From the NCBI RefSeq assembly GCF_030268045.1, contig NZ_BSDC01000001.1:434001-498000 (forward strand): 64,000 bases of DNA, written 5' to 3'. The position numbers and the translations under genes are program-made. Positions 7,069 to 58,978 of the stretch are shown in pieces. Every line of letters starts with the position of its first letter. Position 1 is the stretch's first letter. The notes under the pieces are model-generated. The model saw nothing but the letters and a program-made list of their open reading frames with translations, did not search any database and was not told where the DNA came from. This DNA comes from Geothrix edaphica. GTDB lineage: Bacteria; Acidobacteriota; Holophagae; Holophagales; Holophagaceae.

Positions 7069-7266
7069 CACTCGGCCACGACACCGCTCCCGCTGCGCGA
7101 TCGCGGGCGGCAGCCTCCGCAGGGCTGCGCCCTGCTCCGACTCGGGCCGGCGGGGCCCCGCGCCGCGGGCTGCCGATGCAGCCCGCTCTGCGACCCGCAT
7201 CGTCCCTCGCCGCATGTCCGCGAAACCATCCCGTACCCCCGCATGATGGGGACGCTCAGACCGTAG
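7011..7266. repeat. 58-bp direct repeat of the asnS 3' end (7011-7068 and 7209-7266)
   Basis: The final 58 bp of asnS, including the TAG stop, recur exactly at an offset of 198 bp. The 140 bp between the copies (7069-7208) hold no convincing gene and several GC-rich palindromes, for example GCAGGGC-TGC-GCCCTGC at 7119-7135. The arrangement looks like a tandem duplication or like the direct repeats left by an element that used the gene end as its target. Confidence 0.9.
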
Positions 7267-53616: not shown

Positions 53617-54841
53617 ACACTTCGCCCATCGACCAGCTCTCCTGCTCGCCGGTCGCCATGTGCTTGACGGTGATGGTGCCGCCGTCCAGTTCGCCGTCGC
53701 CCAGGATGAGCACCGTCTGAATGCCCGTGCGGTTGGCGGTGGCCATGGCCTTCTTGAGGGCGCCACCGCGGGTCTCCAGCTGCAGGGCGATGCCGGCATC
53801 CCAGAGCCCGCGCGCCAGCTTGAAGGCCTCGGTGGCGGCCCGCTCGCCCAGGGGGATGAGCAGGGCGGGGGCGACCTGGGGGGCCTCGCCGTGGATCTGC
53901 TGCAGCACCATGGCCAGGCGGTCCAGGCCGATGGCCCAGCCGAAGGCCGGCACGTCGGGGCCACCCAGGTGCTTCACGAGCAGGTCGTAGCGGCCGCCGC
54001 CCAGCAGGGCGCTCTGGGCGCCCAGGTCGGAGCTGAGCAGCTCGAAGGCCGTGCGGGTGTAGTAGTCCAGGCCGCGCACGAGCCGCGGATTCTCTTCGTA
54101 GGGGATGTCCAGGTCTGTGAGAAGAGCCTTGAGCCGGGCGTGGTGCTTCGCCGAGGCCTCGTCCAGGTAGTCCGTGATCACCGGATGTCCTTCGAGCGCC
54201 GCCTGGCAGGTTTCGTTCTTGCAGTCCAAGACGCGCAGCGGGTTGGACTCGATGCGCCGGTGGCAGTCGGAACAGAACTGCTCCTGCCGCGCCGCGAAAA
54301 AGGCGCGGAAGGCCGTGTAGAAGGCGGGGCGCGACTCGGGAGTGCCGACGCTGTTGATGGAGAAGACCATCTGCTTGAGTCCCAGCTCCTTCAGGAAGCT
54401 GTGGAGCATGAGCAGGCTCTCGGCCTCGCTCTCGGGGCTGGCCACGCCAAAGCTCTCGGCGCCGATCTGCCAGAACTGGCGGTACCGGCCGGTCTGCATG
54501 CGCTCGTAGCGGAACTGCTGGCCGATGTAATAGAACAGGACGGGATCACTGGAGGCCAGCAGCTTGTGCTGGATGGCCGCCCGCACCACGCCGGCGGTGT
54601 TCTCGGGGCGCATCACGACTTCGCGGCCGCCCTTGTCCGTGAACTGGTACATCTCCTTGTTCACGATGTCGGAACTCTCCCCGACGCTGCGCTTGAAGAC
54701 GTCCAGCTCCTCGAGGATGGGGGTGCGGATCTCGCCGTAGCCATGGCGGCCGAACACGCGGCGGGCGGTTTCTTCGATATGCTGGAACCAGCGCAGCTCC
54801 GCCCCGAACAGATCCCGCATGCCTTTCACCGATTGGGCCAT
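53600..54841 (-). CDS. hisS: Histidyl-tRNA synthetase
   Basis: 413 residues, class II. Motif 1 region KGMRDLFGAELRWFQHIEET, motif 2 (MRPENTAGVVRA, QQFRYERMQTGRYRQFWQIG), the His-specific RGLDYYTRTAFEL and LLGGGRYDLLVKHLGG, and motif 3 AFGWAIGLDRLAM. The C-terminal anticodon-binding domain is complete. GGGAG 7 nt ahead supports the ATG at 54841. Its start codon overlaps, on the opposite strand, the start codon of the amidase gene. Confidence 0.95.
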   Translation of the reverse strand: MAQSVKGMRDLFGAELRWFQHIEETARRVFGRHGYGEIRTPILEELDVFKRSVGESSDIVNKEMYQFTDKGGREVVMRPENTAGVVRAAIQHKLLASSDPVLFYYIGQQFRYERMQTGRYRQFWQIGAESFGVASPESEAESLLMLHSFLKELGLKQMVFSINSVGTPESRPAFYTAFRAFFAARQEQFCSDCHRRIESNPLRVLDCKNETCQAALEGHPVITDYLDEASAKHHARLKALLTDLDIPYEENPRLVRGLDYYTRTAFELLSSDLGAQSALLGGGRYDLLVKHLGGPDVPAFGWAIGLDRLAMVLQQIHGEAPQVAPALLIPLGERAATEAFKLARGLWDAGIALQLETRGGALKKAMATANRTGIQTVLILGDGELDGGTITVKHMATGEQESWSMGEVFTRLK

Positions 54842-55625
54842 GATCCGACTCCCGAGCCTCCTGCTCACCTTCAGCCTACTGTCTTGGGCCCAGACCCCCA
54901 AACCCACCGGCCCTCCGGTCCATCCGCCGCGCCTGAAGGTCATGGTGGATCCGGGGCACGGCGGGGACGATGGCGGGGCCAAGGGGCCCAGGGGCCTGAA
55001 GGAGAAGGCCGCCGCCCTGGAGATCGGCCAGGCCGTGGCCGCCAAGCTGGAAGCCGCCGGGTTCGAGGCGGTGTTCACCCGGGACGATGACACCTTCATC
55101 CCCCTCTGGGATCGGGCCCGGGCCGCCAATGCCCAGGGGGCGGACCTCTTCATCAGCCTCCACCTGAACGCCGCCCGGACCCGTGCCGCTCGGGGCTCCG
55201 AAGTCTACTTCCTGAGCCTGGGCAAGGGCGACGACGACGAGGTGGTGGCCGCCGAGAACGCCGGCGCCGGGACCGCCCCGACCAGCGCAGACAGCGTGGT
55301 GGCGAGCATCCTGGATGACCTGGCCCAGAAGGCCTTCCTCCAGGATTCCGAGCGCCTGGCCGTGGCCATCCAGGGCCAGCTGAACCGCCTGGCGGGCATC
55401 AAGGAACGCGGCGTCAAGCAGGCGCCCTTCATTGTCCTGCGCGGCGCGGCCATGCCCGCCGTCCTGGTGGAGGTGGCCTTCATCTCCAACCCGAAAGAGG
55501 AGGAGAAGCTCAAGGACGCCGCCTTCCGCGCCAAGGTGGCCGACGCCATCACCCGCGGGGTGCGCCGCTACTTCGCCCAGGCCAACGGCAGCGTGCGGCG
55601 CCGGACCGTGGCCGGACCCGGCTGA
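54840..55625 (+). CDS. N-acetylmuramoyl-L-alanine amidase (Amidase_3, AmiC-like)
   Basis: 261 residues, exported by a signal peptide (MIRLPSLLLTFSLLSWAQ). Cleaves the amide between MurNAc and the stem peptide, probably in cell separation. Zinc ligands and catalytic acid: His in DPGHGGDDGGAKG, Glu in LKEKAAALEI, His in FISLHLNAA, and Glu in VLVEVAFISN. The signal peptide argues for the ATG at 54840, which lies on the same CATG as the hisS start. An upstream in-frame ATG at 54819 would put non-hydrophobic residues in front. Confidence 0.9.
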   Translation: MIRLPSLLLTFSLLSWAQTPKPTGPPVHPPRLKVMVDPGHGGDDGGAKGPRGLKEKAAALEIGQAVAAKLEAAGFEAVFTRDDDTFIPLWDRARAANAQGADLFISLHLNAARTRAARGSEVYFLSLGKGDDDEVVAAENAGAGTAPTSADSVVASILDDLAQKAFLQDSERLAVAIQGQLNRLAGIKERGVKQAPFIVLRGAAMPAVLVEVAFISNPKEEEKLKDAAFRAKVADAITRGVRRYFAQANGSVRRRTVAGPG

Positions 55626-55627
55626 GG

Positions 55628-55652
55628 GAGCGTTGGCCTCCGAAGCCAAAGG
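55628..55652 (+). repeat. 25-bp partial copy of the tRNA-Arg anticodon arm
   Basis: The 25 bp beginning GAGCGTTGGCCTCCG and ending AAGCCAAAGG repeat positions 55746-55770 of the tRNA gene exactly, just after the amidase stop and 118 bp upstream. It lacks the acceptor and T arms, so it is not a working tRNA. Confidence 0.85.
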
Positions 55653-55723
55653 CCATGCGCGCCCCGGTGCCGAAGCCTCAGCCTTGAATGAAAAGCCGAT
55701 CGAAGCCATGATGAGAGGTCGTA

Positions 55724-55800
55724 GTACCCGTAGCTCAGTTGGATAGAGCGTTGGCCTCCGAAGCCAAAGGTCGCTGGTTCGATTCCAGTCGGGTGCACCA
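55724..55800 (+). tRNA. tRNA-Arg (anticodon CCG)
   Basis: 77 nt with encoded CCA. The acceptor GTACCCG pairs with CGGGTGC (one T-G pair). D arm TAGCTCAGTTGGATAGAGC. The anticodon stem TTGGC/GCCAA encloses loop CTCCGAA, giving anticodon CCG for codon CGG. T arm CTGGTTCGATTCCAG. A perfect terminator hairpin begins at the terminal A. Confidence 0.97.
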
Positions 55801-55838
55801 ACAAAGCCAGGGGGGCCTTTGGCCCCCCTGGCTTTGTT
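55800..55838 (+). terminator. Terminator of the tRNA-Arg gene
   Basis: An 18-bp perfect stem (AACAAAGCCAGGGGGGCC with its complement) around a TTT loop, ending in GCTTTGTT. It begins at the last base of the tRNA. Confidence 0.75.
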
Positions 55839-56010
55839 GACGTTTCTGGAATCGAACCAGCGAGTGGATCGCCCAAGGCGGCACTAGATGTGCCGCCGAC
55901 GCGAGCCGAGGGCGGCGCAGCCGCACGGTTCGATTCCCGACGGGGGACCAGTGGCCCCCCCTGGCTTTGTTGACGCTCCTGGAATCGAGCCAGCGAGCGG
56001 GATCACCCAG
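55821..56010. repeat. Duplicated terminator-half and inverted T-arm copies downstream of tRNA-Arg
   Basis: GGCCCCCCTGGCTTTGTTGA at 55821-55840 recurs nearly unchanged at 55953-55972. After each copy comes a reverse-complement T arm of the tRNA: CTGGAATCGAACCAGCGA at 55845-55862 and CTGGAATCGAGCCAGCGA at 55979-55996. A further plus-strand T-arm and CCA-like piece (GGTTCGATTCCCGACGGGGG, then ACCA) ends at 55950. No gene lies here. Confidence 0.75.
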
Positions 56011-56121
56011 GTTTTTCCGGGTCGCGGCAGGGCCCTCCGGGTGGAGCCGCGGGGGCCGACCAGGCCAGGCTCCATGCAGCCTGATTCCCTTGAACCAAAA
56101 GGAATTTTCAATCCCGCGGCC

Positions 56122-56150
56122 TTGACGGACCTCATTTTGCGAGGCACAAT
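56122..56150 (+). promoter_or_regulatory. Sigma-70-type promoter of the PadR gene
   Basis: TTGACG, 17 bp, CACAAT. The -10 covers the first possible ATG of the frame (56149), which argues that translation starts further down at the GTG at 56176. Confidence 0.55.
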
Positions 56151-56175
56151 GAAACAGCCTAAACCGGAGGACCCT

Positions 56176-56502
56176 GTGGATCGTGAACTGCTGAAGGGCA
56201 GCACACCCCTGCTGCTGCTGTCGCTGCTCTGCGAGGGGCCCATGTATGGCTACCAGATCATCGAGACGGTCCGCCAGCGCACCGGGGGATCGTACACGCT
56301 GAAGGAAGGGGCCCTCTATCCGGCCCTCCACAAGCTGGAGGCCACGGAGTTCATCACCTCGTACTGGGAAACCCAGGAGAATGGCCGGGAGCGCCGCTAC
56401 TACTCGATCCAGCCCGCCGGACAGGCCTTCCTCTCCGCCAAGAAGAAGGAGTGGAACCAGTTCGTGGACATGGTCCAGGCCTTCGTCGGGCCCCGAGGCT
56501 GA
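56176..56502 (+). CDS. PadR-family transcriptional regulator
   Basis: 108 residues from a GTG at 56176 with GGAGG 5 bp upstream, the normal length for short PadR proteins. Winged-helix signature: LLLLSLLCEGPMYGYQIIET, KEGALYPALHKLEATEFITS and RERRYYSIQPAGQAFL. An ATG at 56149 in frame overlaps the promoter -10. It is followed at 12 bp by a membrane protein with a HAAS-like N terminus, the common PadR partner, and probably controls that gene. Confidence 0.9.
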   Translation: MDRELLKGSTPLLLLSLLCEGPMYGYQIIETVRQRTGGSYTLKEGALYPALHKLEATEFITSYWETQENGRERRYYSIQPAGQAFLSAKKKEWNQFVDMVQAFVGPRG

Positions 56503-56514
56503 GGGTTCGCTTCC

Positions 56515-57273
56515 ATGTCCCGGGCCCTTGACGGCTACCTCTCCCAAGTGGCTGCCGGCCTGAGGGGAGTGTCCCGCCGGCGGCGGCTCATGCTGCTGCG
56601 GGAGCTGGAGGCCCACCTGCTGGACGAGGCCGAGGCCCGGGGCATCCAGGGCGAGTCGGCCATGTCGGCCCTGCTCGCCGAAAAGGAGCGGCCCGGCCGG
56701 CTGGCCGAGGAACTCGCGGCCGGAGAAGGCCAGGACGCCAATCACCGCGGCGGCACGGCCCTGGCGGCGGGCATGATCATCGGGGCGGCGACGGGCAGCC
56801 ACATGTGGTTCGAGGGCTGGCGCTGGTACATCTGCGTGGCCTTCGCCGCGGCCCAGGGTCTGGCTGTGGGCGCCGGCTACTTCTGGGCCCGGCGGTACTG
56901 GCTCCGGCTTGACCCCTGGGCGCGGACGGCCGTGGCCGTCCTGCTCACCTCGCTGCTCTCCATCCCCCTCGGATTCACCACATCCCACGGGTTCAAGCCG
57001 ACCCGCCTGCTCTACGGGGCCTACACCGGCTTCCTGCTGGAGCGGCACAGCCAGGAACGCCCGCTCTGGCAGACCCTCCTCGAGCCCGTCCTCTTCACGG
57101 CCTTCATGTTCGCCGTGGAGACGGGGTTCCTGGGCCGGATCCGGTTCCAGTGGTGGCAGGTGCCCCTGGAGCTCAGCTTCAACGCCACTCTGCTGATCAG
57201 CGTGATGCTGGCTCTGAAGCTCCGGCGCGTCCTGGCCGAACGCTGGGTGTTGATGCCCCAGGAGCAGGGGTGA
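56515..57273 (+). CDS. Membrane protein with HAAS-like N-terminal domain, PadR partner
   Basis: 252 residues. The first 70 residues are helical and charged (SRRRRLMLLRELEAHLLDEA), like the HAAS/DUF1700 domain found with PadR genes. About five membrane segments follow (for example GTALAAGMIIGAATG, TAVAVLLTSLLSIPLGFTTS, FNATLLISVMLALKL). Function unknown; PadR-HAAS pairs are thought to sense envelope or lipid states. Confidence 0.75.
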   Translation: MSRALDGYLSQVAAGLRGVSRRRRLMLLRELEAHLLDEAEARGIQGESAMSALLAEKERPGRLAEELAAGEGQDANHRGGTALAAGMIIGAATGSHMWFEGWRWYICVAFAAAQGLAVGAGYFWARRYWLRLDPWARTAVAVLLTSLLSIPLGFTTSHGFKPTRLLYGAYTGFLLERHSQERPLWQTLLEPVLFTAFMFAVETGFLGRIRFQWWQVPLELSFNATLLISVMLALKLRRVLAERWVLMPQEQG

Positions 57274-57290
57274 ATGCTGTCCGGGGGGTC

Positions 57291-57363
57291 CCTCGCAACG
57301 TATGCGTTGCGAGGATCTAAGGGCGCGCTGCGCGCCTCCATGTGACACGACGCTTCGCGTCGT
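57291..57363. repeat. Cluster of three small hairpins
   Basis: CCTCGCAACG-TATG-CGTTGCGAGG (57291-57314), GGCGCG-CTG-CGCGCC (57322-57336) and ACGACGC-TTC-GCGTCGT (57347-57363) follow one another after the HAAS gene. The first resembles 9186-9209 and the third the style of 30704-30726. The remaining gap to rpmE holds only the promoter below. Confidence 0.7.
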
Positions 57364-57434
57364 TCCCACTCGCCTCTGGCTCCTGGACATGGAGCCTCCC
57401 CCCGGGCCCCCACGCCGGATCCCGGGAATCCCCC

Positions 57435-57463
57435 TTGAGTCAGGGGCGTTCCAGCGATAAACT
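57435..57463 (+). promoter_or_regulatory. Promoter candidate for rpmE
   Basis: TTGAGT, 17 bp, TAAACT, about 75 bp before the rpmE start. Confidence 0.5.
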
Positions 57464-57537
57464 GTTCGTCTTGCGTGGACAAGCCGCGTGCATTCACCCC
57501 GCCCATGGGGGCATCCGGTCGGTCCCAGGAGGAAGAG

Positions 57538-57798
57538 ATGAAGGAAAAGATCCACCCCGAGCTTCACGACGTGAAGGTCCACTGCGCCTGCGGCAACGAG
57601 TTCATGACGCGCTCCACCAAGAAGGAGCTGCGCGTGGAAATCTGCTCCAACTGCCACCCGTTCTTCACGGGCAAGCAGCGCCTGATGGACACCGAAGGCC
57701 GCGTGGAGAAGTTCAACAAGAAGTATGCGAAGAAGGAGGCCCCTGCGGCCCCCGCCGAAGCTGCTGTCGAGACTGCACCCGAGACCACCGAAGCCTAG
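57538..57798 (+). CDS. rpmE: 50S ribosomal protein L31
   Basis: 86 residues with AGGAGG before the ATG. It begins [20 protein letters not shown] and has zinc-ligand cysteines CAC and CSNC ([15 protein letters not shown]), so it is the zinc-binding form. An alanine/glutamate-rich tail of about 20 residues ([18 protein letters not shown]) extends past the usual end of about 66-70. Followed by a strong terminator. Confidence 0.95.
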
Positions 57799-57813
57799 CT
57801 GTGATGTTCCAAA

Positions 57814-57849
57814 GAACGGGCCGAGCTCCTCGGCCCGTTCTTCTTTTTT
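57814..57849 (+). terminator. Intrinsic terminator after rpmE
   Basis: GAACGGGCCGAG-CTC-CTCGGCCCGTTC followed by TTCTTTTTT: 12-bp perfect stem, 3-nt loop, U-run. Confidence 0.92.
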
Positions 57850-57854
57850 GTGTG

Positions 57855-57885
57855 CTCCAGATCCCGGCGCAGCCGGGATCTGGAG
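57855..57885 (+). repeat. Perfect 14-bp hairpin ahead of prfA
   Basis: CTCCAGATCCCGGC-GCA-GCCGGGATCTGGAG, 5 bp after the rpmE terminator and 19 bp before the prfA start. There is no U-run. If transcribed it lies in the prfA leader. Confidence 0.75.
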
Positions 57886-57904
57886 ATAGCTGAAAAGGTG
57901 GATC

Positions 57905-58978
57905 ATGCTCGACCAATTAGAAGCCGTCGAAGCCCGCTTCCAGGAAGTGGAGGCGCAGCTGCAGGATCCGGCCGTGGTGTCGGATCCCAAGCGCCTGCGT
58001 GAGCTGGCGAAGCTCCGCGCGGAGCTGGAGCCGGTGGTGCTGGCCTTCCAGACCCAGCGCACCCGCATGAGGCAGCTGGAGGAGGCGGAGCTCATCCTGG
58101 GCGACAAGACCATGGATGCGGAACTCCGCGAGATGGCGGAAATGGAGATTCCCGACCTGAAGAAGGCCATCGCCGAGGGCGAGGCCGAGATCAAGCGGCT
58201 GCTCATTCCCAAGGATCCCGCCGACGCCAAGAACGTCATCCTCGAAGTCCGTGCCGGCACCGGCGGCGAGGAGGCCGCGCTGTTCGCCGCAGAGCTGTTC
58301 CGCATGTACATCCGCTTCGCAGAGCGCCGGGGCTTCAAGGTGTCGGTGCTGGACGAGAGCGATGCGGACGCGGGTGGGCTCAAGGAGGCCACCGCCGAGA
58401 TCCAGGGGGACGGGGCCTACAGCCTCTTCCGCTTCGAGAGCGGCGTGCACCGCGTGCAGCGGGTGCCCAAGACCGAGACCCAGGGCCGCATCCACACTTC
58501 CGCCGCCACCGTGGCCGTCATGCCCGAGGCCGAGGAGGTGGACATCGAGATCCACCCGAAGGACCTCCGCATCGACACCTTCTGCTCCGGCGGCAAGGGG
58601 GGGCAGAGCGTGAACACCACCTACTCCGCCGTGCGCCTCACCCACCTGCCCACGAACACCGTGGTCAGCTGCCAGGACGAGCGCAGCCAGATCAAGAACA
58701 TGGCCAAGGCCATGACCGTGCTCCGCAGCCGCCTCCTCCAGAAGGCCCAGGACGAGGCCGACGCGGCCCACTCCGCCCTCCGCAAGTCCCAGGTGGGCAG
58801 CGGTGACCGCAGCGAGAAGATCCGCACCTACAACTTCCCCCAGGGCCGCGTCACCGACCACCGCATCGGCGTCACCATCCACCAGATCGACAGCTTCATG
58901 TCCGGCCAGATCGAGCCGATCATCGAACCTCTGCGGGCGGCGTTCGAGGCCGAGCGGCTGCAGGCGCTGGAGGCGTGA
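57905..58978 (+). CDS. prfA: Peptide chain release factor 1
   Basis: 357 residues; ends translation at UAA and UAG. The codon-recognition PxT motif reads RVPKTETQGRIHTSA (PKT in place of the common PAT). The peptidyl-hydrolysis GGQ lies in CSGGKGGQSVNTTYSAVRLT. The N-terminal helical domain and the C-terminal GQIEPIIEPL end are normal. AAGGTGG precedes the ATG. prmC does not follow; a terminator does. Confidence 0.95.
   Translation: MLDQLEAVEARFQEVEAQLQDPAVVSDPKRLRELAKLRAELEPVVLAFQTQRTRMRQLEEAELILGDKTMDAELREMAEMEIPDLKKAIAEGEAEIKRLLIPKDPADAKNVILEVRAGTGGEEAALFAAELFRMYIRFAERRGFKVSVLDESDADAGGLKEATAEIQGDGAYSLFRFESGVHRVQRVPKTETQGRIHTSAATVAVMPEAEEVDIEIHPKDLRIDTFCSGGKGGQSVNTTYSAVRLTHLPTNTVVSCQDERSQIKNMAKAMTVLRSRLLQKAQDEADAAHSALRKSQVGSGDRSEKIRTYNFPQGRVTDHRIGVTIHQIDSFMSGQIEPIIEPLRAAFEAERLQALEA

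Follow-up and report, generated by a model that had tools for sequence, protein, structure and literature searches.

Why should a tRNA gene be surrounded by pieces of its own sequence? This question arises at the tRNA-Arg(CCG) gene of Geothrix edaphica, which lies in a stretch of 64,000 nucleotides that was analysed as a whole and is called the window in the following (positions 434,001 to 498,000 of contig NZ_BSDC01000001.1). The host genome comprises 3.16 Mb, and its nearest relatives are Geothrix. An earlier note on this DNA had described an anticodon-arm copy upstream of the tRNA as well as inverted T-arm copies, half-terminators and a CCA-ended T-arm piece downstream of it, and had taken these for the scar of repeated integration and excision at the tRNA, or of terminator-mediated rearrangement. 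ARAGORN, Rfam and a repeat search recovered every fragment that it listed, at the right coordinates (Table 1). The feature as a whole reaches from 55628 to about 56013 and begins just past the stop codon of an amidase gene, which is found 5' of tRNA-Arg(CCG) in most sister loci as well. The terminator palindrome is predicted, on paper, to work in both directions. The T-arm-like piece at the right end of the first unit, here called T+, is able to pair with the inverted T-arm, here called anti-T, in a constrained fold, and the second inverted T-arm carries one interior mismatch, A to G, which is a G.U wobble if read as RNA. Chance as the origin of the repeats is excluded by exact matches of 18 and 25 nt inside a few hundred bases, and also by the inverted T-arm matches among the 46 host flanks, which reach 12-23 nt whereas shuffling of the flanks among the tRNAs usually gives 5-9 nt. 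Of the 46 host tRNAs, 11 have such a match of 12 nt or more no farther than 60 nt away.

Table 1. Features of the tRNA-Arg(CCG) locus in window coordinates.
Feature	Position	Strand	Basis and remarks
N-acetylmuramoyl-L-alanine amidase gene	54819..55625	+	Pfam Amidase_3 E 1.2e-53; left neighbour, synteny conserved
Anticodon-arm copy, 25 nt, exact	55628..55652	+	Repeat search
tRNA-Arg(CCG), CCA encoded	55724..55800	+	ARAGORN; Rfam RF00005 68.6 bits
Perfect palindrome, 19 bp, intrinsic-terminator-like on both strands	55799..55839	+	Repeat search
Anti-T, start of unit 1, exact 18-nt inverted T-arm (complement of 55771-55788)	55846..55863	-	Repeat search
Unit 1 core	55864..55926	+	Covariance model R1 81.5 bits, E 5.6e-15, whole genome; fold
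Unit 1 core helix	55869-55872/55901-55904	+	Fold
Unit 1 core hairpin	55877-55884/55890-55897	+	Fold
Unit 1 core hairpin	55912-55916/55920-55924	+	Fold
T+, direct T-arm-like piece with CCA end, right end of unit 1	55927..55950	+	Repeat search
Half-terminator, right half of the palindrome; begins a degenerate second unit	55953..55972	+	Repeat search
Second inverted T-arm	55979..55996	-	Repeat search
Second core, truncated start	55997..56013	+	Sequence
PadR-family regulator gene	56176..56502	+	Pfam PadR E 5.7e-23; right neighbour

The repeat unit and its distribution

The fragments downstream of the tRNA follow a fixed order of terminator, anti-T, a core of about 65 nt and T+. Such units often stand in tandem, and the later units of an array frequently lack the anti-T. 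The core is predicted to fold into two helices that covary and contain tandem G.A internal loops. Alignment of 18 units and folding with RNAalifold gave 14 pairs, 11 of them changed on both sides, and the covariance model R1. R1 has 11 matches in the host genome, which adjoin the tRNAs Pro(CGG), Pro(TGG), fMet, His, Thr(CGT) and Arg(CCG); two host units beside a broken tRNA-Pro 3' end are additional to the set at intact tRNAs. Across 77 genomes of the family, R1 is present in 45 of the 47 Geothrix genomes and in both genomes of a neighbouring genus, with 7 copies in one and 11 in the other. Three further genera contribute a few genomes with one or two matches each, some of them weak. None of 23 genomes from other genera of the class and phylum has R1. 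A search of 84,980 genomes for the exact core pattern returned 13 stretches, all labelled Geothrix, Holophagaceae or Acidobacteria.

Across the genus the unit was found behind at least eight tRNA types, and the arrangement at tRNA-Arg(CCG) is shared at the orthologous tRNA of G007, G006, G017, G008 and G013, with related units behind other tRNAs. In the fetched loci, 100 of the 113 strong units follow an intact tRNA in the same orientation, namely Pro, Thr, His, fMet, Arg(TCT) or Arg(CCG). Of the remaining 13, several follow a Thr, fMet or His tRNA of which the 3' half is left, a picture that would be expected if an island had interrupted the tRNA and the unit had stayed with the chromosome. 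At locus L138 of G009 (G009:C40:17800-19000, 426-701), two identical units with one terminator between them form a perfect inverted pair with no tRNA; this palindrome could reflect an inverted duplication or an error of assembly. The nearest relative of a core stands behind the same tRNA in another genome in 51 of 87 cases, which disfavours active jumping between loci, and tandem units within one array are most like each other.

In the window region and seven related loci, the tRNA was the only feature above the Rfam gathering score, and the remaining matches were hairpin look-alikes under the cut-off. As the titles and abstracts that literature searches listed contained no description of the element either, it is apparently an undescribed structured repeat family linked to tRNA tails.

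Besides the R1 type, the host has a second core type behind the tRNAs Arg(TCT), Val(GAC) and elongator Met (L174, L197, L201), with the pattern GAARCA..GGCCAGCC and unchanged anti-T and T-arm ends. It stands in tandem in two of the three cases, and by eye its closing stem seems to covary. A short core type follows three Ser tRNAs and one Glu tRNA, and another core type lies behind Asp. In G093, which belongs to another genus of the same family, 20-nt inverted 3' ends lie behind tRNA-Asn and tRNA-Gln (L220, L264), and none of the 27 tRNAs of G074 has an inverted 3' end. The inverted copy at tRNA-Asn of G093 is followed by a different, long hairpin core, and an ATCAC-type junction similar to that of G093 is also seen behind the Ser and Glu tRNAs of the host. 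At tRNA-Arg(TCT) of G009, the anti-T has no separate hairpin ahead of it.

Fold, strand and match to the tRNA

The common fold is marked by compensatory base-pair changes. In 127 distinct units, 92.6% of the cells are paired and 388 have changed on both sides, compared with 73.3% and 125 in shuffles, counts that are not to be read as probabilities because the units share ancestry. The covariation score is 0.534 and drops to at most 0.098 when the partner is slid by 1-3 columns. A hand parse of 64 distinct cores gave 93% pairing for the 4-bp helix (75% shuffled) and 97.9% for the 8-bp hairpin 1 (69.3% shuffled). All eight pairs of hairpin 1 are formed in 60 of the 64 cores with some 16 different stems, and half-changed stems are nearly absent. 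The 4-bp helix and hairpin 1 are joined by internal loops of the GA/GA and GGA/GGA type, and folding energies are predicted to be lower on the tRNA strand for 85 of 90 units. Covarying fold, G.A loops and strand energies together speak for a single-stranded molecule with the sense of the tRNA. The minus strand as a cloverleaf-like form was dropped as a candidate, since by eye no acceptor pairing was seen.

The anti-T tracks the tRNA that it follows. In 48 of 65 cases the anti-T of the first unit fits its own tRNA more closely than it fits tRNAs of other amino acids, and in 7 the fit is poorer; compared with other alleles of the own isoacceptor it matches better in 93 flanks, equally in 7 and worse in 3. 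For tRNA-Pro(TGG) there are three T-arm alleles, each with its own anti-T. Within the inverted copy the acceptor part has diverged, whereas the T-arm part is still exact. Interior differences of the anti-T kept a G.U pair on the tRNA strand in 33 events compared with 10 for the equivalent on the opposite strand, a bias that weakens to a one-sided p of about 0.02 after correction for base composition, although the events are not phylogenetically independent.

Islands at tRNA genes and the origin of the fragments

Comparison with sister strains, which the earlier note had proposed as a way to find islands, did reveal them. In G008, two copies of tRNA-Arg(CCG) enclose a segment of about 12 kb that encodes a tyrosine integrase (Phage_integrase, E 1.1e-19), and the distal copy is followed by repeat units. 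G002 has a segment of 3.4 kb at the same tRNA, whose integrase is shortened. In both genomes padR is found past the insertion. These segments identify tRNA-Arg(CCG) as an integration site in the genus, so that this part of the scar reading holds. The segment of G008 (L038 1880-13834) also encodes a protein with a protein-kinase domain and a protein of 969 aa without Pfam match.

As the source of the fragments, however, integration and excision are not supported. In G007, G006 and G017 the amidase gene, the tRNA, the repeat units and padR follow each other in a row, with no space for an island; the earlier note had named the same arrangement in relatives without an island as the finding that would speak against a scar, and this is nearly what these three loci present. 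Nor are the fragments limited to island sites, as units occur at these island-free loci and behind many other tRNAs. Since a unit with a conserved non-tRNA core stands behind Pro, His, Thr, fMet and Arg(TCT) tRNAs, the fragments are, as judged from sequence comparison, members of a small folded repeat family and not the scar of a lost island. A tyrosine-integrase scar, in which the unit would be the terminal part of an element since lost, or else a very small non-autonomous element bounded by direct repeats of the T-arm, is thus an unlikely origin, although it would fit the integrase-bearing segments of G008 and G002, the T-arm direct repeats that flank each unit, and the tRNA 3' halves that mark insertions at other loci. 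Its expected product is direct repeats, which leaves the inverted T-arm and the covarying stems unexplained, as it does the descent locus by locus of one core behind many tRNA types. Moreover, on island insertion the units stay with the chromosomal tRNA 3' end, as is seen in G008 and behind the Thr, fMet and His 3' halves. They are therefore older than the insertions, and by this comparison the repeat units predate, and do not depend on, the islands of G008 and G002. The second process in the earlier proposal, terminator-mediated rearrangement, may still account for the origin of the first inverted copy.

The upstream anticodon-arm copy can be assigned a different history. Degenerate copies of the anticodon arm are located at the same place in G007, G008, G006 and G017, and G009 has truncated tRNA 5' copies in tandem with promoters upstream. 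From these orthologues and tandem copies, an origin in tRNA duplication is likeliest, and the upstream copy is probably a relic of an old duplication of the tRNA.

Truncated 5' copies upstream of tRNA-Arg(CCG) were seen in G005 as well as in G009 (L044 reverse strand 1-360, L053, L055, L050). They are cut in the D-arm by a GC-rich insert of about 80 bp, and related inserts are present in G014 and G015. An insert similar to these, in the opposite orientation, extends hairpin 1 of units in G008 and G017.

A putative two-state RNA and its alternatives

The structure of the unit, its linkage to tRNA genes and the tracking of the own tRNA by the anti-T are shown. What the unit does is a more tentative matter, and cis-acting two-state control of read-through tRNA precursors is a proposal to which we give somewhat less than even confidence. 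We infer that the unit would act as RNA once transcription passes the tRNA terminator. In one state, the anti-T would pair with the T-arm of the tRNA into a long hairpin that blocks the cloverleaf; in the other, it would pair with its own T+ into a three-way junction that leaves the tRNA free. The proposal builds on predicted folds of the window precursor RNA. With the anti-T included, the free fold, which uses the pairing of T-arm and anti-T, lies 12.6 to 15.9 kcal/mol below the fold in which the cloverleaf is forced, energies that leave aside tRNA modification and folding during transcription. When the cloverleaf is forced, the anti-T pairs with T+. Since most units lie behind a strong terminator, they would be part of read-through RNA only. 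The units may multiply by tandem duplication between T-arm copies and would be inherited mostly locus by locus. That they form a cis-acting RNA class, in which a tRNA gene comes with an arm antisense to itself and with a built-in T-arm decoy that holds this arm, and in which the tail unfolds or spares the read-through tRNA and so tunes supply gene by gene, seems doubtful at present.

Palindrome correction during replication could also keep the anti-T and hairpin 1 matched, which the near absence of half-changed hairpin 1 stems would fit. A repeat that keeps its structure without any function is a serious candidate, if a somewhat less likely one than the two-state RNA: the inverted T-arm would have been made by fold-back DNA synthesis at the terminator, the core would hitch-hike, unequal recombination between T-arm copies would multiply the units, and palindrome correction would match the arms. 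Palindromes centred on terminators, stems that are nearly always perfect with few half-changed intermediates, the one perfect inverted pair at L138 and the likeness of units within a tandem array all agree with such a process. It accounts poorly for the G.A internal loops and the wobble bias, which indicate one strand, for an inverted copy whose acceptor part has diverged beside an exact T-arm part, and for conservation in nearly every Geothrix genome. Far less credible is a REP-like mobile element, a palindromic repeat dispersed by a RAYT (Y1) transposase. Like REP/BIME and other short palindromic repeats, the units are small, structured, intergenic and present in several copies, and hairpin 2 with its triloop resembles REP-like hairpins, but they lie nearly always behind a tRNA, in one orientation and with tRNA-specific ends. 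Moreover, the Y1 transposase domain PF01797 is absent from the host genome and from 23 of the 25 Geothrix genomes searched, and a RAYT-driven REP was rejected for this reason.

The tandem repeats of E. coli tyrT, from which the structured rtT RNA (Rfam RF00391) was proposed, lie directly behind the tRNA, each with a copy of the tRNA 3' end. The T+ pieces of Geothrix repeat the tRNA 3' end as well, and the units are in tandem in several arrays. However, the Geothrix units of about 130 bp have an inverted T-arm and a covarying core and follow many tRNA types instead of one operon, and a scan of the window region and the seven related loci, with a limit of E 1, gave no rtT match. Islands at tRNA sites leave tRNA fragments in attL and attR, and here, too, fragments adjoin a tRNA that is used by islands in sister species; in contrast, the Geothrix units are gene-free, are present where there is no island, descend with the chromosome and include inverted T-arms. 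RNAs are also made from the sequence behind tRNAs, as in the 3' external transcribed spacer RNAs such as the 3'ETS-leuZ sponge. The Geothrix tail would be a putative RNA of the same position, which differs by a conserved fold and by complementarity to its own tRNA.

If the two-state proposal holds and the tail is an RNA, it would represent a structured family outside Rfam that is complementary to the tRNA it follows, and a new control of tRNA maturation; the other core types of the host and the inverted 3' ends in another genus would make the tail element a family-wide system. If it is not an RNA, inverted tRNA ends kept matched across a genus would be useful for the study of templated palindrome correction. 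Either way, the locus corrects the habit of taking tRNA fragments beside a tRNA for island scars, and it helps to clear spurious antisense-tRNA proteins from annotation. Long open frames run antisense through the tRNA and the inverted copies (window 55735-58392 and 55568-55876, both on the minus strand). Their translations include motifs such as RLESNQRPLASEANALS and GIEPATFGFGGQRSIQLSYG and are examples of the spurious proteins with which databases become contaminated. ARAGORN also called a tRNA-Arg(gcg) at window 7082-7156 on the minus strand, which is probably a false positive, since the whole-genome listing of the Rfam tRNA model has no match there.
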